Positions 2,116-19,216 of a stretch of DNA of 23,840 nucleotides are shown here, one piece after another. Made by a program: the position numbers and the translations under genes. The notes under the pieces are model-generated. The model ran no database searches. It was not told the DNA's origin and saw only the letters and a list, made by a program, of their open reading frames with translations. The first letter of the stretch is position 1, and every line of letters starts with the position of its first letter. Location: IMG/VR virus record IMGVR_UViG_3300037882_005329, positions 1 through 23,840 of that record; one strand, written 5' to 3'. Origin of the DNA: a virus.

Positions 2116-2432
2116 AGCTTAAAAAATTTAATAACAATCTTCTTTACACTTACAAAGATTTATGTTTTGCTTTAGACCAGGAAGTTGAACAAGTTAAAAA
2201 ACAAACGGCCTATCTCAAAGATTTTTTTAAAAAAAATCCAATAAAAGAAGGGTACTCTGGTCGAAAACTTAATGAGATAAACTGGATAGTTGAAATGAAT
2301 GGAAAGCTAACGCGCCCCATTAAACGCCCTGGAAAAGATAGAGCTGTTTTTGTAAAAGAATCTTTCTATCATTGGCTTTTAATGTATCAAGACGTTCAAA
2401 ATGGAAAACGTTATCCAACTTTAAAAAATTAA
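2112..2432 (+). CDS. Hypothetical protein (106 aa)
   Basis: A 106-aa basic protein beginning MKLKKFNNNLLYTYKDLCFAL. Residues about 12-45 could form helices of a DNA-binding fold (TYKDLCFALDQEVEQVKKQ). The lysine/arginine-rich middle (LTRPIKRPGKDRAVFV) fits nucleic-acid contact, but no named domain can be assigned. It is coupled to the gene before it by an ATGA overlap and ends two bases before the RecA-like start, so it is probably cotranscribed with the recombinase. Confidence 0.65.
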   Translation: MKLKKFNNNLLYTYKDLCFALDQEVEQVKKQTAYLKDFFKKNPIKEGYSGRKLNEINWIVEMNGKLTRPIKRPGKDRAVFVKESFYHWLLMYQDVQNGKRYPTLKN

Positions 2433-2434
2433 TC

Positions 2435-3562
2435 ATGGCACCAAAGAAAAAAATAGACACAGAAGATGTTAAAGAAAGTGGTTCTCAAGATATCTTAGCC
2501 GCATTTCTTAAAACTAATAAAGACGATCACCACAATTTTGCTGAAAGAGTGGATTATACGGTTTCATCTGGGAGTATGTTGTTAGATATGGAGCTTGGTG
2601 GAGGTTTTAAACCAGGGATTGTTAGGATGTCTGGGATTAGCGAAGGTGGCAAAACATCCTGCGCCCTTCTTACGTTAGGAAACCACTTAAAAACAACTCC
2701 AAACAGCAAGGGTTTAATTATTAAAGCCGAAGGGCGGTTAAGTGAAGAAATGAAAAGTCGTTATGATTACAAATTTGTTTATACGGCTGAAGAATGGGTT
2801 GTGGGAACGGTTTTCGTTTTTGAAACGAATGTTTACGAAGCCGCGATTGATTTAGTCAGACAATTAGTGAAAAATAACCCTGAATCTATTCGTTATTTCG
2901 TTATTATTGATTCGATGAACGGATTGTGTAGAAGAGAAGATTTGGTAAAAGATTCCGGATACAATGATAAAGTAGCTGGGTCCGCGTTACTTACGTCAAT
3001 CTTTTTACAAAAAATGGGTGCAGCTTTAGGTAGACTTGGCCACATCTGTATATTTATTTCTCAAGTCCGTTCTTCTGTAAAAATAGATCCTTATGCTAAA
3101 GTTGACCCAAAAATTACAAATGCAAGTGGTGGAAATGCTTTGAATCACTATTCTGATGTAACTCTTGAATTTCAAGAAAGATTTAAAGGGGATATTATAG
3201 AAAGAACTGAAGGCGGAAAAGAAAAAACGGTAGGACATTATTGTAAAATTATTTTTCGTAAATCTGGTAATGAAAAGACAAATACGTTAGTTAAGTATCC
3301 GGTTAAATACGGAAGGAAGTTGGGCAAGTCTGTTTGGGTCGAATTGGAAGTTTTTGATATGTTGCTTGCTTGGGGATTATTGAGTAAAGGCGGTGCTTGG
3401 TATCATCTAACGCCGGAATTAACAACTATGTTAACCTCATTAACCAAAGACGAATTACCAACAAAATTTCAAGGTCAAGACGCCGTTCTTAATTGGTTAG
3501 AAAGTAATCCGGCTATGGTTGAATTTTTAGCGAAAGATTTTAAACAAAAAATTTCGGAGTAA
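2435..3562 (+). CDS. RecA/UvsX-like recombinase
   Basis: This 375-aa protein is a RecA-family strand-exchange ATPase. Walker A is GISEGGKT at residues 67-74. The SGSMLLDMELGGG stretch before it matches RecA's GSLxLDxALGxGG. The glutamate that activates water in RecA is present at residue 99 (KAEG). Walker B is FVIID at 155-159. The glutamine switch is Q210 in ISQVR, followed by SGGNALNHYSDVTLEF, which corresponds to RecA's TGGNALKFYAS. I chose ATG 2435 because an upstream in-frame extension to 2372 lies inside the previous gene and would precede an obvious MAPKKK start. In the phage it should support recombination-dependent replication and repair. It is followed after two bases by a nuclease gene. 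Confidence 0.9.
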   Translation: MAPKKKIDTEDVKESGSQDILAAFLKTNKDDHHNFAERVDYTVSSGSMLLDMELGGGFKPGIVRMSGISEGGKTSCALLTLGNHLKTTPNSKGLIIKAEGRLSEEMKSRYDYKFVYTAEEWVVGTVFVFETNVYEAAIDLVRQLVKNNPESIRYFVIIDSMNGLCRREDLVKDSGYNDKVAGSALLTSIFLQKMGAALGRLGHICIFISQVRSSVKIDPYAKVDPKITNASGGNALNHYSDVTLEFQERFKGDIIERTEGGKEKTVGHYCKIIFRKSGNEKTNTLVKYPVKYGRKLGKSVWVELEVFDMLLAWGLLSKGGAWYHLTPELTTMLTSLTKDELPTKFQGQDAVLNWLESNPAMVEFLAKDFKQKISE

Positions 3563-3564
3563 TT

Positions 3565-3972
3565 GTGAAATGGCTCAATCATAAAGGTAAGGAGTTTACC
3601 TTTTTTGATAAAAAATACTTAATTAATTGGTCTAAAAAAGCTCCTAGCAAAGGGAGTCAAGAAGTAAAGGAATTTTTAGCCACTAATTACAAGTTCTGGG
3701 CTTGGTATGAAGAGTATAGACTTCCTCAAACCAGATTAAGAGTAGATTTTTTAACAACAACCGTTAAACTAGCCATAGAATTTCACGGAAGACAACACGA
3801 AGATTATATTCCGTTTTTACACGGTTCTAGATCGGGGTTTCTTTCACATATAAAAAGAGATGTGAAAAAAGAAGAAATCTTATCTAAAAACGGATTTAAA
3901 TTAATCGAAATATACGAAGATGATTTAGAACTATTAAGCCGTTCTTGGTTTGAAGAGAAAATGCGGAACTAG
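3565..3972 (+). CDS. PD-(D/E)XK / Vsr-like small endonuclease
   Basis: A 135-aa protein starting with GTG at 3565, six bases after a good GGAG ribosome site that lies inside the recA end. The core reads LRVDF, then AIEFHGRQH, then RDVKKEEILSKNGFKLIEI. This has the shape of Vsr/DUF559-type PD-(D/E)XK nucleases: an acidic residue in the first strand, an E-x-H or E-x-x-Q centre, and a helix ending in a hydrophobic strand with E/D. It could be a recombination nuclease (Holliday-junction resolvase or nicking enzyme) working with the adjacent RecA-like protein, or a small free-standing homing endonuclease. It lacks the AGTGTAAT leader seen before the clear homing endonucleases, which favours a housekeeping role. 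Confidence 0.6.
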   Translation: MKWLNHKGKEFTFFDKKYLINWSKKAPSKGSQEVKEFLATNYKFWAWYEEYRLPQTRLRVDFLTTTVKLAIEFHGRQHEDYIPFLHGSRSGFLSHIKRDVKKEEILSKNGFKLIEIYEDDLELLSRSWFEEKMRN

Positions 3973-3994
3973 TGTAATATTAGTAAGCTATAAT
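3950..3994 (+). promoter_or_regulatory. Promoter region with AGTGTAAT motif and TATAAT box
   Basis: The octamer AGTGTAAT lies at 3971-3978, just after the stop of the nuclease gene. Read as a -10 element, TGTAAT (3973-3978) has TTGAAG at 3950-3955 exactly 17 bases upstream. A second box, TATAAT, is at 3989-3994, 15 bases before the ATG at 4010. Either could drive the 4010/4268 pair. The octamer recurs before other genes in the window. Confidence 0.5.
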
Positions 3995-4009
3995 AAAAAA
4001 TAGCCAACT

Positions 4010-4258
4010 ATGAAGAAAGAAAAACCTGGACACCAGTTTCCTCAAAATCTTCTAATGCAGATTAACGAAAACACCGCTGGATTTGTTTTGTTTACAATAG
4101 ACGGAAACGGCCACCCATGCGTTTATTCTAAATTGGATAACCAGATTAACGAAATAGGTTTACATAACTTCATACGTCATTACGCCGAAACAATTGAAAC
4201 CGCTCACAGCAATTCGGTTTATACTTCGGTTATGGGCCAAGAGCCTGATGACGAATAA
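4010..4258 (+). CDS. Small hypothetical protein (82 aa)
   Basis: An 82-aa protein with no recognised family. It has a polar, proline-containing start (MKKEKPGHQFPQNL), a central strand-rich part (AGFVLFTIDGNGHPCVYSKL) and an acidic end (GQEPDDE). It is preceded by a probable promoter and followed nine bases later by the phosphoesterase, so the two are likely one transcription unit. No ribosome-binding site is obvious; the leader is A-rich. Confidence 0.6.
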   Translation: MKKEKPGHQFPQNLLMQINENTAGFVLFTIDGNGHPCVYSKLDNQINEIGLHNFIRHYAETIETAHSNSVYTSVMGQEPDDE

Positions 4259-4267
4259 ATAAAAAAA

Positions 4268-5527
4268 ATGCTAAAAATAAAAGAAATCGAGTCGGATATA
4301 CAAAATTTACTCAAGACGGGTTGTTCAAAAATAGATTTAGCTAACTTTATAAGAGAAAAAACAAAGCTAAAAGAAACTCAAGTTCGTTTTTATACTCGAC
4401 ATTTTTGGGGGCCGGACGAAAGCAAGGAAGGTATTAAAATAGAAAAGAGTTCAACCGAGCAAACATTACAATATGCGGGCGACGACCTAATTAATGTCGA
4501 AAATCTGTTAAAAAAGTGTAATGTTGATAGTAAAAAATGGGAAGTATCCAAGTTCACCTTAGAGGAAAAACACATAACCAAAAAAATTGGAGATAGTATA
4601 GAGTTCGTACCGAAATATGACGTTCGGGCTTGGCTTGAGAAGAAAGTGGTGGATCAGGATGAGTTATTAAAAGAATTCATACAAGAGGCGGCGAAACATA
4701 GTCCCACCAATTTTGAATACAAAAAACTGACTGAGGATAAAACGCGAAAATATCTTTTGGAGCTGGCTATTTTAGATCTTCATTTAGCAAAGCTCGCGCA
4801 AAAACGTGAAACGGGATGGGATAATTATGATATCAAGATAGCTGTTGATTTGTATAGAAAAGCTGTTAATGATTTATTGAGTAAAGCGCCGCTAGATGAA
4901 ATCTCAGAAATTGTTTTTCCGGTTGGAAATGACTTTTTTAATTCAGATAACGAACTATATACAACAACTTCTGGAACCCCACAACATGATGATTCACGGT
5001 GGCATAAGTCTTTTACGGTCGGTTGTAATCTAATGACCGAAACGATTGAGCGGTTAACTACTATTTGCGATAAAGTAACTGTATTGATTGTTGCTGGGAA
5101 CCACGATAGACAAAAGGTTTTCTACTTGGGGGAATATTTGAGTGCTTGGTTTAAAAACAACAAACGTGTTATTGTTGAAAATTCCCCAAATAATAGAAAA
5201 TATTTTACATTTGGTCGTTGTTTATTAGGCTACGCTCATGGATGTGACGAAAAACATGCGGATCTCCCTCTAATAATGGCTCGTGAGCAACCTAAAGCCT
5301 GGGGGGAATGCAAGCATTATAGGTGGGCCATTGGACATTACCACCATATTACAACAAAAGATTATAAAGGGGTTATGGTGGACATCTTACCATCTCTTTG
5401 CGCGAGCGATTCTTGGCATTCTCGTAAAGGTTTCGTGGCGAACTGGCGCGGCTCTCAAGCGTTTTTATATGATGGGGAAGAGGGATTGACAGCAGTTTAT
5501 TATCACAGAGTGAATCAACCTTCTTGA
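4268..5527 (+). CDS. Calcineurin-like metallophosphoesterase
   Basis: A 419-aa protein whose C-terminal 255 residues carry the metallophosphoesterase signature in order: D-x-H at 170-172 (LDLHL), G-N-D at 220-222 (usually GD), GNHDR at 277-281, H324 in GYAHG, and GHYHH at 356-360. These residues bind two metal ions and hydrolyse phosphodiesters or phosphomonoesters. The first 50 residues look like a small helix-turn-helix (SKIDLANFIREKTKLKETQV). The substrate is not evident; a DNA-processing role is plausible from its place between recA and dnaB. The last 20 codons are of special interest. A diverged second copy of them lies at 6598-6651, beyond the endonuclease gene, so the present C-terminus appears to have been supplied during an endonuclease insertion. 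Confidence 0.85.
   Translation: MLKIKEIESDIQNLLKTGCSKIDLANFIREKTKLKETQVRFYTRHFWGPDESKEGIKIEKSSTEQTLQYAGDDLINVENLLKKCNVDSKKWEVSKFTLEEKHITKKIGDSIEFVPKYDVRAWLEKKVVDQDELLKEFIQEAAKHSPTNFEYKKLTEDKTRKYLLELAILDLHLAKLAQKRETGWDNYDIKIAVDLYRKAVNDLLSKAPLDEISEIVFPVGNDFFNSDNELYTTTSGTPQHDDSRWHKSFTVGCNLMTETIERLTTICDKVTVLIVAGNHDRQKVFYLGEYLSAWFKNNKRVIVENSPNNRKYFTFGRCLLGYAHGCDEKHADLPLIMAREQPKAWGECKHYRWAIGHYHHITTKDYKGVMVDILPSLCASDSWHSRKGFVANWRGSQAFLYDGEEGLTAVYYHRVNQPS
5462..5515 (+). repeat. Phosphoesterase 3'-end repeat, copy 1 (in the intact gene)
   Basis: These 18 codons encode FLYDGEEGLTAVYYHRVN. They align without gaps to 6598-6651, which encode LLYNKDDGLVSVFYHGVK. Eight residues are identical and most others are conservative. 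Many base changes are at third codon positions, so both copies seem to have evolved as coding sequence. The two form an imperfect direct repeat flanking the endonuclease at 5591-6592. Confidence 0.7.
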
Positions 5528-5572: not shown

Positions 5573-5599
5573 AGTGTAATAAGTAGCATCATGGCTACT
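5573..5599 (+). promoter_or_regulatory. AGTGTAAT motif and start-codon hairpin of the Vsr-like endonuclease
   Basis: AGTGTAAT is at 5573-5580, ten bases before the ATG. A perfect 6-bp stem, AGTAGC (5582-5587) with GCTACT (5594-5599), encloses the loop ATCATG, so the start codon at 5591-5593 lies in the loop. This could block translation from long upstream transcripts. No Shine-Dalgarno is visible. Confidence 0.5.
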
Positions 5600-6592
5600 A
5601 AACTTAACTTGAGCAAAGAGACAATAGACGAAATCTGCAAATTATATACCGAAAGAGTAAGAATATTTGAAATAGGTAAGCGTTTTGGGATAATACCTAA
5701 GACTATAGAATTTTACTTAAAAAAGAGAGGGATGTTTGTAAAAGGGCAGCATAAGGTCTCGGAAGAACAAAAACAGGAAATAATAAAAGATTACTATAAT
5801 AATGTTCCGCTCGAACAAATAGCGAAGAAATTCGATACTACCGTCTGGACGATTTGTGACAGAATGAAACGGTGGGGACTTAGATTAAATGGACCAGAAC
5901 GAAGAATATTCATTAATAGATTGGGAATTCCCGAAGAAGACGTTATAGCGAAACATTTAGAATTTAAAAAAGATATTAATGAGACAGCTAAATTCTACAA
6001 AGTCACTAGAGAAACCGTAAGAAAAATACTAAAAAAACATAACATTAAGAGTCCTAATGATGATTTAATTGAATATATTAATTCTAAAAAAGATTATATT
6101 ATAGATAAACATAAAAATGGATATAGCATGGCGGAAGTTCGGGTGGAATTAGGTATTGGTCAGACAACAATGTATAATTTCTGCCATAGATGGGGCTTGG
6201 AACTCAAATATCCAATAATTACTTCCATAGAAAGAAAAATTGGTGAATTATTAACAGAACTGGGATTTAAATATGAAAGACAATTTGAGGTTCGTAGAAA
6301 AAGATTCGATTTCTATCTTTTTGACTTAGGATTATTTATTGAAACCAACGGTAATTACTGGCATGGCAACCCGAAACTTCACAAAACATTAGATTTAACA
6401 CAACTTGATGCTCAACTCAGGGATATCCGTAAAATCCGTTTGGCGGCCAAACTCAAAAAGAAACTCATTTTCATTTGGGAAGATGAAATCAACAATAAAT
6501 GGGACCAAGTAAAATCCATCATAACTAACCTCTCAAACCGCATTCCAACTCAAAAGAACCAATTTGACTTTATTACAGAACAAACGATATGA
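5591..6592 (+). CDS. HTH-array / Vsr-like (PD-(D/E)XK) homing endonuclease
   Basis: A 333-aa protein made of four tandem helix-turn-helix units (about residues 8-48, 57-97, 115-152 and 167-203) followed by a nuclease domain at 205-320. The units resemble each other in the pattern I/L-x-x-Y/F...I-A-K-x-F-x-x-x-x-x-T-I...R-W-G-L. The nuclease has KRFDFYLFDLGLFIETNGNYWHGNP, then an R-D-I-R-K helix, then FIWEDEI. This fits Vsr-like EDxHD homing nucleases such as the I-Bth0305I group. It is not inside a gene but is wedged between the phosphoesterase and dnaB, with a duplicate of the phosphoesterase 3' end after it. The expected role is to cut an endonuclease-free allele and spread by repair. Confidence 0.8.
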   Translation: MATKLNLSKETIDEICKLYTERVRIFEIGKRFGIIPKTIEFYLKKRGMFVKGQHKVSEEQKQEIIKDYYNNVPLEQIAKKFDTTVWTICDRMKRWGLRLNGPERRIFINRLGIPEEDVIAKHLEFKKDINETAKFYKVTRETVRKILKKHNIKSPNDDLIEYINSKKDYIIDKHKNGYSMAEVRVELGIGQTTMYNFCHRWGLELKYPIITSIERKIGELLTELGFKYERQFEVRRKRFDFYLFDLGLFIETNGNYWHGNPKLHKTLDLTQLDAQLRDIRKIRLAAKLKKKLIFIWEDEINNKWDQVKSIITNLSNRIPTQKNQFDFITEQTI

Positions 6593-9650: not shown

Positions 9651-10337
9651 ATGTGCGTAGGTAGTTTAAATGATAAAACGCTAACCTCCCAGGTTGGAGT
9701 TGAAGGTTCGAATCCTATCTCTACGCTCCACTTTGAAAGATGCGAATTAAAAGAGGTGTCAAATTTCGTAAAAAGTAATCATTATTCTCGCACGCATCCT
9801 GGTGGTATAGATTACTCCTTTAAATTAATATACAAAAACCAAGTAATGGGAGCATGTTTATTTGGATATATGGCTGGAAATCCAAAGGCAATGTGTTTAA
9901 TAGACGAACAAGATAATCCAAAACTATATAGAGAATTAATGAGGTTAGTCTTATTAGATGAAGTTCCTAAAAACTCCGAAAGTAAGTTTATAGGATGGTG
10001 TTTAAGATGGTTGAAGAAAAATACAGATTTAATAGCTTTAATAAGTTTTGCCGATCCAAAATTTGGACATTCTGGAACAATTTATAAAGCTAGTAATTGG
10101 AAGTATTGTGGTTTACAAAAACAAGATAGACCAAGAATAATAATAGATGGTAAAGAAGTCCATCCAAAATCTTGCTACAATCTTTACGGCACTTCATCTA
10201 TAAGTAAATTAAAAGAACTAGGAATGAAAGTAGATCTGAAAGAAAGAGAGCCTAAACATAGATACGTTTATGTTTTAAGAGATGAGTTAAAAGGTAAGTT
10301 AAAAACAAGATTATTTAGTCAACAACATCTAGGCTAA
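9651..10337 (+). CDS. Mom-like DNA-modification protein (GNAT fold)
   Basis: The product from about residue 28 on resembles the phage Mom family, which modifies adenine in DNA to block restriction. The shared marks are SNHYSRTHPGG, a strand-rich middle with GACLFGY, then ELMRLVLLDEVPKNSESKFIGWCLRWLKKNT, ISFADPKFGHSGTIYKASNWKYCG and a final KHRYVYVL. This order (HYS, RL-L-D-PKN-ES, SYADP-GH-GTIY-AxN) is typical. The start is unclear. The only in-frame ATG (9651) is four bases before the tRNA-Gly, so the first 26 codons would be read through the tRNA. The next standard in-frame start candidate is GTG 9756. The true product probably begins after the tRNA. Confidence 0.75.
   Translation: MCVGSLNDKTLTSQVGVEGSNPISTLHFERCELKEVSNFVKSNHYSRTHPGGIDYSFKLIYKNQVMGACLFGYMAGNPKAMCLIDEQDNPKLYRELMRLVLLDEVPKNSESKFIGWCLRWLKKNTDLIALISFADPKFGHSGTIYKASNWKYCGLQKQDRPRIIIDGKEVHPKSCYNLYGTSSISKLKELGMKVDLKEREPKHRYVYVLRDELKGKLKTRLFSQQHLG
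9655..9730 (+). tRNA. tRNA-Gly (anticodon CCC)
   Basis: A full cloverleaf ends in an encoded CCA. The acceptor is GCGTAGG with TCTACGC (one G-T), followed by U73 as is usual for glycine. The D stem is GTTT/AAAC. The anticodon stem is CTAAC/GTTGG with loop CTCCCAG, giving CCC. The T loop is TTCGAAT. The T stem pairs fully only if one A on its 3' side is bulged. The sequence resembles bacterial tRNA-Gly(CCC). It lies inside the 5' end of the open frame of the Mom-like gene. Confidence 0.85.
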
Positions 10338-13141: not shown

Positions 13142-13173
13142 AGTGTAATGTAAGGAGTGAACACGAAAACTCC
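13142..13173 (+). promoter_or_regulatory. AGTGTAAT motif and start-site hairpin of the GIY-YIG endonuclease
   Basis: AGTGTAAT is at 13142-13149. GGAGT (13154-13158) and ACTCC (13169-13173) form a 5-bp stem with a ten-base loop. The stem contains the only Shine-Dalgarno-like AAGGAG and the first two bases of the GTG start. As a folded leader it would hide the start site. Confidence 0.4.
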
Positions 13174-13873
13174 ATATTTTTATATCATAAGACACAAACC
13201 GAGCCAAAAGTATTACGCAGGATGCAAAATAAATTTAAAAGCTGATTCAACTAATTTGATGACTAAAGGCGGATACCAAACAACCTCCAAGATTATCAGG
13301 AAAATCATAAAAGAAGATGGACTAGACTCTTTTGAGATTTTGAGGATTAAGCATTTTGAGTTTCCAGAACAAGCTTTAGATTACGAAACTAGATTTTTGG
13401 TAAAAGTTGACGCATCTAATAATGACAAATTCTTTAATCGCCATAATGGAGGCAAACACTTCAATAATAAGGGCGGATACAGACTTTCTGAAAATACCAA
13501 ACGAAAAATGATGAAGCCGAAGTCTAAGGAGACTGTTGAGAAGCAAAAAATCGCGTCAAATAATCGTCCTAAAGATTTCTATGAAAGGATAGTAGAAACT
13601 CGTAGAAAAAATAATCCTGTTTGGCATAGTAATGAGATGGGAGAGAAGATTAGAAGGAAAAATATAGAGAGATTTTCAGATGAAAATGTCAGGGAAAAAC
13701 ACTCTGAGTTAATGAAGGAATATTATAAAAACAATCCAGTTTCCGACGAAATTAAAAGAAAGAAGAGCGAAACTAGTTCCGGCGAAAGTAATCCTATGTT
13801 TGGAAAGAATCATAGCGAAGAGACTAGAGCTAGAATGAAAGCCGCATGGGTGGAAAGGAGAAAGAAACTTTAA
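13157..13873 (+). CDS. GIY-YIG homing endonuclease (Seg-like)
   Basis: A 238-aa protein with the GIY-YIG nuclease core at the N-terminus: YFYII at residues 7-11, KYYAG at 18-22 in the YIG position, and an E-T-R helix (LDYETRFLVKVDA). Its second half carries NUMOD3-type DNA-binding motifs, the clearest being GESNPMFGKNHSEETRARM near residues 209-228, with an earlier SENTKRKM copy. The plan matches T4 Seg proteins, which sit between phage genes and spread by cutting endonuclease-free relatives. The start is unclear: GTG 13157 overlaps the AAGGAG and no ATG follows before the core. It separates nrdB from nrdA, a common endonuclease site in phages. No duplicated gene end is seen here. Confidence 0.85.
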   Translation: MNTKTPYFYIIRHKPSQKYYAGCKINLKADSTNLMTKGGYQTTSKIIRKIIKEDGLDSFEILRIKHFEFPEQALDYETRFLVKVDASNNDKFFNRHNGGKHFNNKGGYRLSENTKRKMMKPKSKETVEKQKIASNNRPKDFYERIVETRRKNNPVWHSNEMGEKIRRKNIERFSDENVREKHSELMKEYYKNNPVSDEIKRKKSETSSGESNPMFGKNHSEETRARMKAAWVERRKKL

Positions 13874-13876
13874 TTT

Positions 13877-15526
13877 ATGTATAAAAATTATTACTGGTTG
13901 AACGAGGAATCTAGGATTTTTCTTAAAAGAGATTACCTTTCTAAAGGTGAGACTCCTGAACAAAGGATTAGAGATATAGCGGAAAATGCAGAGAAAATAC
14001 TCAAAATAGATGGGTTTGCGGATAAGTTCGAGGGCTTCATGAAAAAGGGTTATTATTCTCTTGCTACCCCGTGTTGGGTAAATTTCGGGAATAAAAGGGG
14101 CTATCCCGTCTCTTGTTTTGGGAGTTTTATTGAGGACGATACAGAATCTATTTTTGATAAATTGTCCGAGATAGGAGTTATGACCAAGGGTGGAGGGGGG
14201 ACCTCAGCTTATTTTGGCGAATTGCGACCAAGAGGGTCTAAGATTAGTTCTGGAGGGGAGTCAGATGGCCCAGTTCGTTTCATGGAAATGTTTGATTCTG
14301 TAACTAAAATTATTTCACAAGGATCGGCTCGCCGAGGCACAATGGCTGCTTATCTTCCGATAGATCATCCAGACATTAAAGAATTTTTAGCTATCAAATC
14401 TGATGGACATCCAATTCAAGCATTAAATATTGGCGTTACGGTTTCTGATGAATGGATGAAGTCGATGGTTGATGGCGATTCCGATAAGAGGAAAGTTTGG
14501 GGTAAAGTTATCCAAAAACGGTTTGAGAGCGGTTATCCTTACATCTTTTTCAGTGATACGGTCAATAAGAATAAGCCGCAAATCTATAAAGATAGAGATC
14601 TGAGAATTTACGCTTCAAATGTTTGCTCCGAAATCACCTTACCATCGACTTCAAAAGAATCGTTTGTTTGCGTTCTTTCTTCTATTAATTTACTCCATTG
14701 GGATGAGATTAAGAAAACCGATGCTGTAGAAACATTATTATATTTTCTTGACGCCGTGAATGAAGAGTTTATTGTTAAGACAAGTGATAAGAAATTCATG
14801 GAAGCCCCCCATAATTTTGCTAAGAACCATCGGGCTTTAGGTTTGGGTGTTTTGGGCTGGCATTCTTTGCTTCAGTCTAAAAGCATTGCTTTCGAATCAA
14901 TGGAAGCCAAATTTCTCAATACCGAAATTCACAAAACTATCAAGGTGAAATGTGACATAGCAACTAGAGAATTGGCGCAAAAATACGGGGAAACCCAACT
15001 TTTGAAAGGAACTGGGCGTCGGAATGCAACGGTAATGACATTGGCTCCCACAACAAGTTCTTCTTTCATTCTTGGTCAGGTCTCTCAGTCGATAGAACCC
15101 TTAAACTCTAATTATTTTGTTAAAAAACTAGCCAAAGGTAACTTTACCTACAAAAATCCTCATCTTAAACAACTATTGATAGAAAAAAATAAAGACACAA
15201 AAGAAGCCTGGGAGGAAATTCTCAAAAATGGCGGCTCGGTCCAAAAGCTAGATTTCCTATCCGAGCATGAGAAAGATGTGTTCAAAACCTTTGTGGAAAT
15301 CAGCCAAAAAGAAATCGTTATCCAAGCAATCCAACGACAAAAGTATATTGATCAGTCTCAGTCCCTCAATCTGATGATACACCCTAAAACTTCTCCCAAG
15401 GAAGTTAGTCAATTATTGATTTATGGATGGGAAAACGGAATCAAGACATTCTACTACCAACGTGGTTGCAACCCCGCACAGGAACTTGGTCGAAATTTGC
15501 TTCAATGCAAATCTTGCGAAGGGTAA
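13877..15526 (+). CDS. nrdA: Ribonucleoside-diphosphate reductase, large subunit (compact form)
   Basis: A 549-aa class I R1 protein, the catalytic subunit that turns ribonucleotides into deoxyribonucleotides. Every key residue is visible: redox cysteine C80 (YPVSCFGSF), the N248-C250-E252 active site (SNVCSEITLPS), partner cysteine C265, the radical-path tyrosines Y526-Y527 (KTFYYQ), and the C-terminal CKSC pair (544 and 547) that receives electrons from thioredoxin or glutaredoxin. It is much shorter than the usual 700-760 residues. It begins right at NEESRIFLKRDYLSKGETPE, so the N-terminal ATP-cone that gives dATP inhibition is absent. Loss of that switch suits a phage that needs unchecked dNTP supply. 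Confidence 0.92.
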   Translation: MYKNYYWLNEESRIFLKRDYLSKGETPEQRIRDIAENAEKILKIDGFADKFEGFMKKGYYSLATPCWVNFGNKRGYPVSCFGSFIEDDTESIFDKLSEIGVMTKGGGGTSAYFGELRPRGSKISSGGESDGPVRFMEMFDSVTKIISQGSARRGTMAAYLPIDHPDIKEFLAIKSDGHPIQALNIGVTVSDEWMKSMVDGDSDKRKVWGKVIQKRFESGYPYIFFSDTVNKNKPQIYKDRDLRIYASNVCSEITLPSTSKESFVCVLSSINLLHWDEIKKTDAVETLLYFLDAVNEEFIVKTSDKKFMEAPHNFAKNHRALGLGVLGWHSLLQSKSIAFESMEAKFLNTEIHKTIKVKCDIATRELAQKYGETQLLKGTGRRNATVMTLAPTTSSSFILGQVSQSIEPLNSNYFVKKLAKGNFTYKNPHLKQLLIEKNKDTKEAWEEILKNGGSVQKLDFLSEHEKDVFKTFVEISQKEIVIQAIQRQKYIDQSQSLNLMIHPKTSPKEVSQLLIYGWENGIKTFYYQRGCNPAQELGRNLLQCKSCEG

Positions 15527-15531
15527 TCTCC

Positions 15532-15537
15532 TATAAT
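15532..15537 (+). promoter_or_regulatory. TATAAT box before the orphan glycosyltransferase start
   Basis: CTATAATATAG just after nrdA holds a perfect TATAAT, eight bases before the orphan ATG. The same CTATAATA lies in front of the intact gene at 17277-17284, so the duplication includes the promoter. No good -35 box is seen in either copy. Confidence 0.45.
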
Positions 15538-15545
15538 ATAGTTAA

Positions 15546-15635
15546 ATGAAGCGCAAAATTCTCTTCCTTACGAATTACTGTGGTCTTTATACTGGTTTTG
15601 GTCGCCATACCTGTTTAGACATCAATAGTAGGTGA
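15546..15635 (+). pseudogene. Orphan 5' end of the glycosyltransferase gene
   Basis: The frame from ATG 15546 encodes KRKILFLTNYCGLYTGFG after the initial M, matching RRKILFVTNYCGLFTGFG at the start of the intact gene (from 17300) in 15 of 18 residues. By eye about 44 of 56 bases agree, ending with a run of 11 identical bases (ACTGGTTTTGG). After 15602 the match stops, and the frame runs a few more codons into the end of the - strand endonuclease gene. It is best read as the original gene start, cut off by the insertion. A 29-aa peptide could still be made. Confidence 0.75.
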
Positions 15636-17201
15636 GATTATTTGAGTTCTTGGGTCTACGTATGGTGTATTTAGCAAGTCATGGAATTTGGTTCGGAGTT
15701 CTATTTGGATGATGAGAGCTTTTTCTAATTCACCTTTCTCTTCTAGAGTTTGATCTTTAGCAATCTTTTTGTATTCTATAAGATCTTCGTAGATTAGGAA
15801 TTTCCTTTTCATTAGGAATGGAGCGTCCTTGAAAAGATAGTTGCATATTTTAAGAACTTGGTGAGCACCACTCCATCCAATTCTCTTACTTTCGCCATCA
15901 TTACATTTAGTAAAACTACCACGAACGCCTAACACCTCTTTTAGTTTAAAAAAACATCCTTGCAAAAACTTTTCTGTTCCTACCATTCCAATATGGAACC
16001 CCCCTTTATTAAATTGATTCGGTTTAGTTATCCATCCATCACCAAAAATACACCCCAAAAGGAAAGAGTTAAAATATTCATCTTTAATCCAATTCGGATA
16101 CTCTAATAAATGACTTTTATCCTCTATACATCCCAAACTCTTAAGATCCATAGAGATTGTTTTATTTGTTATTGTAGAAACCCAAAAATTCTTTTTAGGA
16201 TTATAAACTGGTGGCCTGTTAAACTCTAATTGGTCTGTAAAGTACTTAACTGTAGCAATATCTTCACCAGTTAATCCTAAAGCGGTGCAATACTTTCTTT
16301 TCGAATAAGCGTTTGACCCATCTGTAAGCAAAAGACCCATAATAAAATGCTTTTCTCGCGCGCCAACATCTTTGAAATAATTTTCATTTAAAGAGTATCG
16401 TTGATTATGGATGCGACTATCATGTAATTTACCTAATTTTTTCTTTAAAATCCTAACAATAATAACCTGAGTAGAATTAAACTTTTTACACAAATCGCTA
16501 ACAGAATAGTTCTTGGTTTTATATAAAACTACTAACTCATCTATTTTATCCAATGGAAACGTTGTTGTGAACTGTTTTGGTAGAGGAGGTTTTAAATAGT
16601 TTTGAATAATTCTTTTTGCAGTTGTGAACCGAACTAATTTCAATATTTCATTGATATAGTAAAGAGTTTTTCCTTCTAAAAAATATTGATATAGAACATT
16701 TGTTTTTTTGATTTCTGTCACCGTCTCTTTCCTGGGAAAATCCTCTCTTTTTATCCCCATTTTTCTCAAGTGATAGGTTATAGCATGGTTGTGGACACCA
16801 AATTTTTTAGCTATTTCTGATAAACTACATTTATTCACGAACATTTCTTTGATTTTTTCTTTATCCAAAAACTTCCTATTATTAGCTTCGCTTATTGATC
16901 TAAATTGAGCGCAGTTTCTTTTTAGAATGCTCATGATAGCACATCTATCACATTCGTAGTCTCTGGATAATTTTCTCACAGATTCATTAAGGGTTGTATA
17001 TCTATGAACAACATCTCTCTCAATTTCCTTATCCAAACTCCTTTTCAACTCTGTTGGCTTTCTTCGAGGAATATTATTTTTAATAAATTCTTTTCTTAGT
17101 TCGTTTCTAGATACGTTTAGTTTTATACCTATAGCCTCAAGGCTCATCTTATCGTTTTCATAAAGGTTTTTAGCTAGCTGTATTAGATCCTGTGTTATCA
17201 T
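15615..17201 (-). CDS. HTH-array / LAGLIDADG homing endonuclease
   Basis: A 528-aa protein on the opposite strand to all its neighbours. The first 260 residues hold about five helix-turn-helix units (near 3-45, 57-97, 112-150, 165-203 and 218-257), for example SLSEIAKKFGVHNHAITYHLRKMGI. The nuclease half has two LAGLIDADG motifs, FIMGLLLTDG at 286-295 and FLLGCIFGDG at 380-389, with the catalytic aspartates D294 and D388 intact, so one chain could form the full active site. It lies between an orphan 5' end and the complete copy of the same glycosyltransferase gene. The start ATG is preceded by AGTGTAAC on the same strand. No intron core is visible around it. Confidence 0.85.
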   Translation of the reverse strand: MITQDLIQLAKNLYENDKMSLEAIGIKLNVSRNELRKEFIKNNIPRRKPTELKRSLDKEIERDVVHRYTTLNESVRKLSRDYECDRCAIMSILKRNCAQFRSISEANNRKFLDKEKIKEMFVNKCSLSEIAKKFGVHNHAITYHLRKMGIKREDFPRKETVTEIKKTNVLYQYFLEGKTLYYINEILKLVRFTTAKRIIQNYLKPPLPKQFTTTFPLDKIDELVVLYKTKNYSVSDLCKKFNSTQVIIVRILKKKLGKLHDSRIHNQRYSLNENYFKDVGAREKHFIMGLLLTDGSNAYSKRKYCTALGLTGEDIATVKYFTDQLEFNRPPVYNPKKNFWVSTITNKTISMDLKSLGCIEDKSHLLEYPNWIKDEYFNSFLLGCIFGDGWITKPNQFNKGGFHIGMVGTEKFLQGCFFKLKEVLGVRGSFTKCNDGESKRIGWSGAHQVLKICNYLFKDAPFLMKRKFLIYEDLIEYKKIAKDQTLEEKGELEKALIIQIELRTKFHDLLNTPYVDPRTQIISPTIDV

Positions 17202-17203
17202 CT

Positions 17204-17219
17204 TGTAATTAGTTACACT
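17204..17219 (-). promoter_or_regulatory. AGTGTAAC motif and short hairpin before the LAGLIDADG endonuclease
   Basis: On the - strand, AGTGTAAC (17219 to 17212) ends ten bases before the ATG at 17201. TGTAA-CTAA-TTACA (17217 to 17204) is a perfect 5-bp inverted repeat with a four-base loop that includes part of the motif and ends two bases before the start codon. Confidence 0.4.
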
Positions 17220-17277
17220 TTTTCAATTCCGGTGGTTAACGTCATCAACTTAGTGCTTGTAAAATTACAAACTCAGC

Positions 17278-17283
17278 TATAAT
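17278..17283 (+). promoter_or_regulatory. TATAAT box before the intact glycosyltransferase gene
   Basis: TATAAT lies eight bases before ATG 17291. TTGTAA at 17257-17262 is the nearest -35-like hexamer, with a short 15-base spacer. The surrounding CTATAATA repeats the sequence before the orphan start at 15546. Confidence 0.45.
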
Positions 17284-17290
17284 AAACGAT

Positions 17291-19216
17291 ATGGGTAAAA
17301 TGAGAAGGAAAATTCTATTTGTTACAAATTATTGCGGTTTATTTACTGGTTTTGGAATGAATATTCGCGCTCTCATGTCTTATATTTATCAAAATTATTC
17401 AGATAAGTATGAAATAGCCTTAGCTGCCGGTGGTCAATACAATTATAATCCAGACTTTTCCCGCTATCCTTGGAAAATTTTTGGTTTGCTTCCAATAGAT
17501 CAACACAGTCAGGAAAAAATGGAACTCGATAAAGTTTTTGCACAAAAAGCTGCTTATGGAGAGTTTACATTAGATTTAATAGTTCAGGATTATCGCCCTG
17601 ATATTGTGTGTCTCCAAGAAGATGTTTGGGGCGTCAGTTACGCAAAAAATATGGAATTTTCCAAATATATTCCTACGATTTACCATACAACAATAGATAG
17701 TTTGCCAATTTTAGATTTGGCTTATGAATTGGCGGCCTCAACTAAGTATTTTTGGGCTTGGTCTACCTTTGCCTCTAAAGAGATGAATAAAAGAAGCGGG
17801 CTCCAACATGTAACCTATCAATACCCATGTATTCCGACAAATAATTTTTTTCAATTACCCTCAAAAAAGAAACTAGAAATTAGGAAACGATTTAATATTC
17901 CAGAAGACGCCTTGGTTTTTGGTTATGTTTTTCGCAATCAACCTCGAAAACTTGTTCATAAACTAATCGAAGGTTTTAAAATATTTAGAGATGAAAAGCC
18001 AGACAAAAAAGCTTTTTTATTACTCCACACATCGTATAGGGAAGGATGGGCTATAAACAAATTCCTAGAACAGTATGGTGTTAATCCAAACGAAGTTCTT
18101 TGTTCCTATATATGTAGGGCTACAAAAGAGTACTATGTTGCACCATATCAAGGTGAGGGACTTCCAAATCCTTTTAATAACAACGAAAAGACGCTTTTTA
18201 CCATTGATGTAGCTAATGGATTAAATTTAAGTCAATTAAATGAAGTTTACAATTTAATGGATTTATATTTTTGTCCAAGTTCATCAGGTTCGACAGAAAT
18301 TCCTTCAATCGAAGCCGCCTTAACTTCTCTTCCCGTAGTCGTGCCAAACTATTCCTACGGCGAAGATATCATCCAATTTAACATTGGGGGTTCATTTTCC
18401 ATGCCTTTCGATTTTTATACCGAACCAAATACTCAATTCTTAAAAGCTAATCCTCGGCCTGATGGTATCGCAAAAATAATGGAAGATTTTTGTAACCTTC
18501 CATCCAAACAAAAAGAAGAAATGAGTGCAAAAAGCCGCGAATGGGCTCTCAAAAACTACGACGTTAAGGTTAATGCCGAAAAAATACTTAAAGCAATCGA
18601 TGAAATTCCACAACATACCTGGGATTTTAAAATAAATTTGAAACGAAAGAAAAACCAAGACTATCCATTTCCAGAAGGAATTGTTGATGATGTAGATTTT
18701 ATTCTTGATTTGTATAAGAACATTCTTTACTCTTACGAAGAGACGAGAGATACGAAGGGGTGTATGGATTGGCAAGCTTCACTTAAAGGTGGAGTTAGCC
18801 GCCAAAAGGTTTACGAGTTCTTTATAAATGTCGCTAAAAATGACAATCGAAATTTAGGCGATCAACAAACTTTTGCGGATTTACTAGAAGAAACTGGGCG
18901 ACCGAAATTACTTTTTGTGCTTAAGGAAAGCGCGGGAGATATTCTAAATTCCACGTCATTACTACCTTCATTAAAAAAACAGTATCCAAATCACGACGTT
19001 TATTACGCTTGTGATCCGAAATTCGCAGGAATTCTATTGGCAAATCCAAATATCCATGCTATTCTTCCCTACGATCCAATAATGGAAAACGAATTACAAA
19101 TGATTGGTGCAGGCTCACATAAAGGTTGGTTTGATATTTATATTCATGCTGGAATTAGTTGCCAAAGACAACTTAACTACTTGAGCCACAAAAACTTAGG
19201 ATTGGAGGTTAAATGA
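17291..19216 (+). CDS. Glycosyltransferase fusion: GT4-like, DUF4214-like, GT9 N-terminal half
   Basis: A 641-aa cytosolic protein. Residues about 5-440 are a GT-B glycosyltransferase of the GT4 type: an N-terminal RKILFVTNYCGLFTGFG strand and loop, a donor-domain start at VFGYVFRNQPRKL, and near residues 330-350 STEIPSIEAALTSLPVV, the E-x-x-x-x-E-A motif that binds the sugar nucleotide. Residues about 468-515 (FILDLYKNILYS...GCMDWQASLKGGVSRQKVYEFF) match the DUF4214 pattern. From about residue 537, RPKLLFVLKESAGDILNSTSLLPSLK is the N-terminal half of a GT9 (heptosyltransferase-like) domain that stops at the stop codon. ATG 17300 is an equally good start, since the orphan copy aligns from there. 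It may glycosylate phage or host surface structures. Confidence 0.82.
   Translation: MGKMRRKILFVTNYCGLFTGFGMNIRALMSYIYQNYSDKYEIALAAGGQYNYNPDFSRYPWKIFGLLPIDQHSQEKMELDKVFAQKAAYGEFTLDLIVQDYRPDIVCLQEDVWGVSYAKNMEFSKYIPTIYHTTIDSLPILDLAYELAASTKYFWAWSTFASKEMNKRSGLQHVTYQYPCIPTNNFFQLPSKKKLEIRKRFNIPEDALVFGYVFRNQPRKLVHKLIEGFKIFRDEKPDKKAFLLLHTSYREGWAINKFLEQYGVNPNEVLCSYICRATKEYYVAPYQGEGLPNPFNNNEKTLFTIDVANGLNLSQLNEVYNLMDLYFCPSSSGSTEIPSIEAALTSLPVVVPNYSYGEDIIQFNIGGSFSMPFDFYTEPNTQFLKANPRPDGIAKIMEDFCNLPSKQKEEMSAKSREWALKNYDVKVNAEKILKAIDEIPQHTWDFKINLKRKKNQDYPFPEGIVDDVDFILDLYKNILYSYEETRDTKGCMDWQASLKGGVSRQKVYEFFINVAKNDNRNLGDQQTFADLLEETGRPKLLFVLKESAGDILNSTSLLPSLKKQYPNHDVYYACDPKFAGILLANPNIHAILPYDPIMENELQMIGAGSHKGWFDIYIHAGISCQRQLNYLSHKNLGLEVK

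Follow-up and report, generated by a model that had tools for sequence, protein, structure and literature searches.

The DNA analysed here is the 23,840-base linear IMG/VR virus record IMGVR_UViG_3300037882_005329 (hereafter "the window", meaning that whole stretch). Between its ribonucleotide reductase gene nrdA and a glycosyltransferase gene lies a LAGLIDADG homing endonuclease gene on the opposite strand, and the beginning of the glycosyltransferase gene is present twice, once on either side of it: as the start of the full-length gene (the resident start) and as a short fragment beside nrdA (the orphan). In order, the locus consists of the following features:

13877 to 15526, plus strand: nrdA, ribonucleotide reductase large subunit, 549 amino acids (Pfam PF02867, E 1.2e-99), the upstream neighbour of the orphan.
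15527 to 15545, plus strand: spacer of 19 nucleotides (nt) between nrdA and the orphan, with a -10-like CTATAATA at 15531-15538, as read from the sequence.
15546 to 15611, plus strand: orphan glycosyltransferase 5' end, 22 codons, MKRKILFLTNYCGLYTGFGRHT; 77% nucleotide identity to the resident start; its last three codons fit the family and the next one does not.
15612 to 15614, no strand: the 3 nt from the end of orphan homology to the endonuclease stop codon, putatively the left insertion junction and cut site.
15615 to 17201, minus strand: LAGLIDADG homing endonuclease, 528 amino acids, intact (PHROG 4645, E 1.5e-36, residues 174-476).
17202 to 17290, no strand: spacer of 89 nt between the divergent endonuclease and glycosyltransferase starts, with CTATAATA at 17277-17284, as read from the sequence; its leader is similar to that of L097, the closest glycosyltransferase relative.
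17291 to 17365, plus strand: functional glycosyltransferase 5' end, codons 1-25 (MGKMRRKILFVTNYCGLFTGFGMNI); beside the putative cut it has M, against K or R in 78 of 79 relatives.
17366 to 19216, plus strand: the remaining glycosyltransferase gene, codon 26 on (Pfam PF00534, 3.1e-6; phrog_2170, 1.5e-17; 31-42% identity to full-length family members).

A first-pass annotation of this DNA had placed the two copies of the gene start at 15532-15602 and 17278-17356. The repeat is real, with its boundaries corrected to 15541-15601 and 17295-17355 (47 of 61 bases identical, 77%; spacing 1754; blastn E 1.4e-7 within the 23.8 kb record), and it is the longest direct repeat within 15400-17500. The first-pass annotation noted that recombination between the two direct repeats would remove the endonuclease and restore a gene; such loss may occur, although the longest exact match between the two start copies is only 11 bp. 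At the protein level, counted from the start codon, the orphan (MKRKILFLTNYCGLYTGFG) and the resident start (MRRKILFVTNYCGLFTGFG) are identical at 16 of 19 residues. Nucleotide divergence amounts to 14 of 57 positions, and the 19 compared codons comprise 8 that are identical, 8 silent changes and 3 replacements, all conservative (8 of the 11 changed codons are therefore silent); about 9 replacement codons would be expected if all differences were neutral. That both copies evolved as working starts is favoured by this pattern, though not proven. The flanks of the endonuclease, compared with each other, scored 41 bits in the window, against a best score of 27 for shuffled flanks across 85 endonuclease loci put through the identical comparison. 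Base composition differs between the two starts (GC content at third codon positions 0.41 in the orphan vs 0.18 in the resident start, 22 codons each), at which level donor and recipient parts are not separable.

The point at which the orphan stops resembling the gene can be placed from the family pattern. Across 79 distinct members, TGFG is followed by K or R in 78 and then by two variable residues, with K or R at position eight of the motif in all 79. The orphan reads TGFG-R-H-T-C, with R at the first of these positions, and is family-like through codon 22 (15611) until C breaks the pattern at codon 23. Homology, which had been thought to end near 15602, thus runs three codons further (CGC CAT ACC, encoding RHT), and the break lies at 15611/15612, 9-10 bases beyond the original estimate and 3 nt from the endonuclease stop codon (TTA at 15615-15617). 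The resident gene has M after TGFG, a residue found there in none of the 79 family members. When the orphan MKRKILFLTNYCGLYTGFGRHT was joined to resident codon 26 (R of RALMSYIY), the product scored 64.7 bits against a profile of the 79 family N-termini, compared to 61.5 bits for the resident start on the same profile; joins shifted by 1-3 residues scored 51.9-58.7 bits, making the in-register join the best of seven offsets. Because this join outscores both the resident start and every shifted join, the orphan and the gene body have the look of a single gene that was interrupted, the endonuclease and a second start apparently having come in between them. The sequences around the putative site are the orphan end GGTTTTGGTCGCCATACC, the gene from codon 26 CGCGCTCTCATG and the resident start GGTTTTGGAATGAATATTCGCGCT. 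At the junction, the resident gene reads GGA ATG AAT ATT and the orphan GGT CGC CAT ACC, and with this difference the resident gene would therefore no longer be cut.

The open reading frame (ORF) at 15615-17201 bears out the first-pass identification of an inverted LAGLIDADG endonuclease (minus strand, 528 amino acids, PHROG 4645 match). Helix-turn-helix modules occupy its N-terminus and a two-motif LAGLIDADG domain its C-terminus, and the acidic residues D294 and D388 are invariant in an alignment of 37 endonuclease sequences. Its AlphaFold model (mean pLDDT 80, the predicted local distance difference test score) has I-LtrWI, I-PanMI and I-Tsp061I as the closest PDB folds. Pfam LAGLIDADG models miss 1e-3 for the window copy and reach it for the sister copies described below. 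Alignment and model together point to a complete LAGLIDADG fold with both catalytic acids, and site-specific cleavage is predicted. A single-protein search of IMG/VR with the window endonuclease gave no match. PHROG 4645 relatives in named phages lie inside split genes in sense orientation and without duplication (gyrA of Bacillus phage Goe21, the ATPase P-loop in cr6_1, and rec in Staphylococcus phages, where the enzyme is I-MsaII); because of these positions, we regard PHROG 4645 as an intron-type endonuclease family, with an apparent tendency to occupy conserved motifs. At the window locus, a group I intron was rejected as there was no Rfam intron RNA match within 15300-17600 at E up to 5, a search that also missed intron-like sequence in L258 and L267, two of the related endonuclease loci. 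The endonuclease is antisense to the glycosyltransferase, and an in-frame intein is therefore impossible. Noncoding repeats stand on either side of the endonuclease in L258 (3320-3520 and 4821-5024) and L267 (582-917 and 2926-3260) and look like two group I-like introns in succession (in L258 in a terminase-like gene, judged by eye). These repeats go unrecognised at Rfam gathering thresholds; they were considered as gene-end duplications and rejected, looking instead like repeated intron-like sequence.

The duplication had also been thought to include a promoter, which we could not support: CTATAATA does lie upstream of both starts, but 8 nt out of register, and this -10-like motif is also found ahead of other genes (3989, 8894, 11097). 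The resident leader (TATAAT..GATATGG) resembles that of L097. Across the window, TATAATA occurs at 3989, 8894, 11097, 15532 and 17278, in some cases with TTGACA at a fitting distance and in some directly before starts, and these sites are probable sigma70-type phage promoters.

In our judgement, it is likely that a free-standing homing endonuclease element entered the glycosyltransferase gene after codon 22 and restored it with a replacement 5' end. The element would comprise the endonuclease gene, the promoter region between the divergent genes and a gene start that is homologous to the recipient's but has diverged from it, and its insertion point would be the most conserved N-terminal motif of the protein (TGFG-K/R). 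During co-infection, the endonuclease of a donor phage would cut the recipient gene at this motif, and the break would be repaired from the donor locus, inserting the endonuclease together with the donor's gene end. The recipient would then keep its old start as a 22-codon orphan beside nrdA, followed by the endonuclease and the donor start in frame with the recipient gene body. The orphan would accordingly represent the recipient's original start, the resident start at 17291-17365 the donor-derived replacement brought by the element, and the gene from codon 26 on, at least in part, the recipient's own. Cleavage, resistance, transfer and this donor-recipient polarity are what we infer for the window locus from its sequence. 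One-sided, partly illegitimate repair is documented in intron homing of phage T4 (reviewed in PMC2988022), and an existing orphan could later act as a second homology arm, as proposed for the WHO elements of yeasts (PMC7282813). The first-pass annotation had already suggested that the endonuclease came into the 5' end accompanied by a homologous start of different ancestry and left the gene intact, and this fits the break at the stop codon, the in-register join, the mostly silent differences and the 88 family loci that have no second start.

An endonuclease-family alignment was used to retrieve 80 IMG/VR loci, and flanks were compared with each other, with shuffled controls, at 85 endonuclease loci including the window; 14 more named-phage loci were then added. 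Protein-coding gene ends were duplicated across the endonuclease in 3 of the 85 loci (the window, L256 and L243), and the 14 named-phage loci yielded one more case, Streptomyces phage Jada (L284). The endonucleases of the sister elements all belong to phrog_4645. The common plan would be a replacement gene end, the endonuclease and an orphan gene end. The endonuclease gene has the same polarity in the window, L243 and Jada, with its stop codon next to the orphan and its start towards the replacement end, and the opposite polarity in L256; read like this, the "inverted" orientation in the window follows the polarity of the element and mirrors the cases at 3' ends.

Jada provides the clearest case. 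Its locus runs from a short C-terminal copy (VRGYWLWQSRRNTPEMGS) through the endonuclease gp204 to VRGYWYWQSRRNSPEMGS, which abuts the endonuclease stop. The endonuclease-free phages Gilson and Emma1919 have one intact NADAR-domain gene (PF08719, E 1.2e-25), and the 3' end of the Gilson gene around ATGGAAGTGCGTGGC is the counterpart of the Jada site. This 3' end in Gilson and Emma1919 matches the Jada orphan at 57 of 57 bases, and the identity continues downstream (288/300); against the other Jada copy it matches at 37 of 57, with 25 of the 27 bases directly before the switch identical. Because the endonuclease-free relatives match it in this way, the alignment shows that the orphan is native to Jada, whereas the copy on the other side is foreign. 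Insertion was at one point: native sequence resumes right after the endonuclease stop, with 0 native bases lost on the orphan side. Foreign copy and orphan differ by 11 silent and 2 replacement codons. Jada subsequently lost the body of the gene, and gp203 (L284 2282-2461), annotated as hypothetical, is a small neighbouring gene to which the foreign C-terminal copy of the NADAR gene is fused. Phage Forrest, whose flanks are about 99% identical, has neither the endonuclease nor either of the gene-end copies.

L256 represents a second 5'-end case. An orphan helicase start (MTKQDELQKEMVKKSIEFYKTKNRGYLDLAMRFGK), cut at the P-loop, is followed by the endonuclease in sense orientation and by a second, diverged start (MINAKQRLLQEQVVKKTIEFFKTNKAGYLNLAMRFGKT), which the endonuclease stop overlaps. 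The endonuclease-free L269 and L270 have a single helicase start (MTKQ.ELQK...GYLDLAMRFGK) with 79-80% nucleotide identity to the L256 orphan and 72-75% to the functional start. The expectation that endonuclease-free relatives carry the orphan type of end therefore held exactly at the 3' end in Jada, and in tendency only at the 5' end in L256. Compared with L269, the L256 helicase gene (2124-3203) shows about 72% identity as far as codon ~155 and about 97% over the remainder; the diverged tract reaches ~490 nt into the gene, and DNA is diverged on both sides of the endonuclease. The gene is a mosaic of the kind expected from co-conversion. L243 is a 3'-end version, in which a primase gene with its C-terminus is followed by the endonuclease and by an orphan C-terminus (WADLAKVHGLQAIENYLKTKNLL) overlapping the endonuclease stop; close relatives of this gene free of the endonuclease were searched for and not found.

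From these loci we consider it probable that phages have gene-end-replacing homing elements of their own, built on an intron-type LAGLIDADG family, which enter conserved motifs with no splicing element involved and mend the broken gene with a foreign copy, resistant to cleavage, of its 3' end or of its 5' end, the latter bringing its own start and leader. The general view is that free-standing homing endonucleases are confined to intergenic sites, insertion into a gene being destructive without an intron or intein. If the proposal is true, phages have a third way in, by replacing the gene end that is broken. It would account for the orphaned ends of genes, and the chimeric genes, seen in phage genomes, and homing would directly shape mosaic gene evolution at conserved active-site motifs. 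The isolate pair Jada and Gilson makes this testable in the laboratory.

Of the other explanations, ordinary recombination comes closest: a donor carrying an endonuclease beside a complete glycosyltransferase operon would have replaced the downstream region, leaving the orphan as a scar and the endonuclease as a passenger. Phage nuclease genes are indeed often located where exchanged segments meet (PMC10448857), L256 has ~490 nt of diverged sequence within its gene, and donor sequence may take up more or less of the window gene. Against this, the break falls at the endonuclease stop and within the most conserved N-terminal motif, the orphan joins codon 26 in register, and in Jada native sequence resumes directly after the endonuclease with nothing lost; we consider this explanation unlikely.

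Two further scenarios are each less probable still. Two related glycosyltransferase genes might have stood in a row, the endonuclease entering the first of them, of which only the initial 22 codons escaped later deletion. The divergence of the two starts (77% nucleotide identity) with mostly silent changes is as it would be in two working genes, but a second glycosyltransferase start was absent from 88 family loci (up to 5 kb of upstream sequence), and the 49 records searched hold one such gene per record where it is present. Tandem paralogues would also require that a deletion happened to end 3 nt from the endonuclease stop and that similar accidents occurred independently in L256, L243 and Jada, and the Jada orphan is 57/57 identical to the single gene of its relatives. 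We therefore give this little credence. About as improbable is a start copied from the same genome during break repair at insertion, the copies then drifting apart. If half of the differences were neutral, as in a decaying orphan, the 3 observed replacements would be within statistical reach (P about 0.07). A divergence of 14/57 nt in which 8 codons changed silently and 3 conservatively suggests instead two lineages under selection, and in Jada it is the foreign copy that has diverged and the orphan that is unchanged from the relatives, the opposite of orphan decay. An assembly chimera of two strains is very improbable: the window is one metagenomic contig, but its junction coincides with an endonuclease gene boundary, there is no long sequence shared with the resident copy to bridge an assembly graph, and the same anatomy is found at three other loci, one of them in a finished isolate genome (Jada).

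Several points weigh against replacement of the gene end by a homing element. The arrangement was found in only 3 of 98 tested endonuclease relatives besides the window (84 + 14), and because of this, gene-end duplication is a minority mode, many relatives sitting in intron-like split genes. In L256, the left flank is diverged too, which makes the direction less clean, and the whole unit of orphan, endonuclease and start may have arrived together instead of forming on insertion. The profile gain of the joined start is only 3 bits and would serve as supporting evidence only. The record is a single 23.8 kb metagenomic contig, with no second assembly found. Close relatives were sought in IMG/VR (by single protein, two alignments and a degenerate DNA pattern of the start) and in GTDB contigs (by one alignment), and these searches gave no endonuclease-free close relative, L097 being closest at 42% amino acid identity. 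As a result, the assignment of donor and recipient at the window locus is indirect, and the orphan is only putatively the native copy there.

Upstream of the orphan, the gene order is nrdB, a NUMOD3-bearing (GIY-YIG type) nuclease gene and nrdA; downstream of the endonuclease follow the glycosyltransferase, a GT9-type gene and others. The glycosyltransferase family is large in environmental phages (31-42% amino acid identity to the window copy) and its members often stand after ssb and before the same GT9 gene and another conserved ORF. Among 80 nrdA loci (38-69% identity), none had a glycosyltransferase of this family or the endonuclease directly downstream. In L097, a TnpB-like gene (by eye; 3344-4744) lies between ssb and the glycosyltransferase. 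The window contains three more nuclease-type genes (3565-3972, Vsr-like; 5591-6592, helix-turn-helix plus Vsr-like; 13157-13873, GIY-YIG/NUMOD3), which sit between replication and nucleotide genes, and no gene-end duplication was found beside any of them. A related GIY-YIG gene occupies the same nrdB/nrdA gap in L006. An Rfam tRNA match (36.6 bits) at 9655-9726 falls inside the start of the ORF listed at 9651-10337; because of this overlap, the true start of that ORF is probably downstream of the listed one.

Among known systems, the intron-type PHROG 4645 endonucleases (I-MsaII in Staphylococcus phage MSA6 rec, Goe21 gyrA, and the crAss-like cr6_1 and cr114_1) share with the window both the family and insertion at conserved motifs (P-loops). 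They differ in that the gene is split in sense, with no duplication, consistent with splicing introns, whereas the window has a duplicated gene end and no intron. To our knowledge, the free-standing homing endonucleases of phage T4 leave no orphan gene end. As in the window, SegF, SegG and MobE (intronless homing; PMC2988022) are free-standing, lie beside their presumed target gene and are accompanied by flanking co-conversion; however, the genes on either side of them are intact and the sites they cut are at least hundreds of bases distant, whereas insertion in the window is at the putative cut within coding sequence. T4-type intronless homing was rejected for the window, where the endonuclease directly adjoins an orphan fragment of a gene. 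That phage endonucleases can lie at recombination boundaries is already known (PMC10448857), and orphan gene ends were not found described in that account or in those of T4 intronless homing (PMC2988022). In the open-licence full texts searched, no gene-end-replacing homing elements were reported in phages, and none replacing a 5' end.

The first-pass annotation was right that this is not the usual intron or intein solution; it is not unprecedented, though, the precedents being yeast WHO elements and fungal mitochondrial mobile ORFs (mORFs). The mORF hybrids of Allomyces (atp6) and Glomus (atp6, atp9, cox2, nad3) have foreign carboxy-terminal ends with mostly silent differences (PMC3630166). 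As proposed for the window, they combine a LAGLIDADG or GIY-YIG ORF with a foreign, silently diverged gene end and leave the native end as an orphan; they differ in being mitochondrial, in affecting carboxy-terminal ends and in co-transcription of the ORF with the gene, where the window is phage DNA and the duplicated end amino-terminal. In Torulaspora and Lachancea, each integration of a WHO element replaces the 3' end of FBA1 (PMC7282813). WHO elements are yeast nuclear elements restricted to that 3' end, with an intein-like endonuclease bearing a zinc finger, and their cleavage was shown experimentally; the window is from a bacteriophage, its presumed replaced end is a 5' end with its own start and leader, its endonuclease is antisense and its cleavage is predicted from sequence. 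In WHO elements, and by our reading in the window, the endonuclease gene has on one side a complete, chimeric host gene whose end was replaced and on the other a leftover piece of the former end, with no intron or intein, resistance in WHO elements coming from an allelic difference in the supplied end (PMC7282813). In the window, the endonuclease is flanked by a full-length gene and an orphan of the same gene end, and the orphan breaks off where the insertion begins, keeping register with the host gene. This supports gene-end-replacing homing as in fungi, here in a phage and at a 5' end, and would extend to phages a mechanism known only from fungi.

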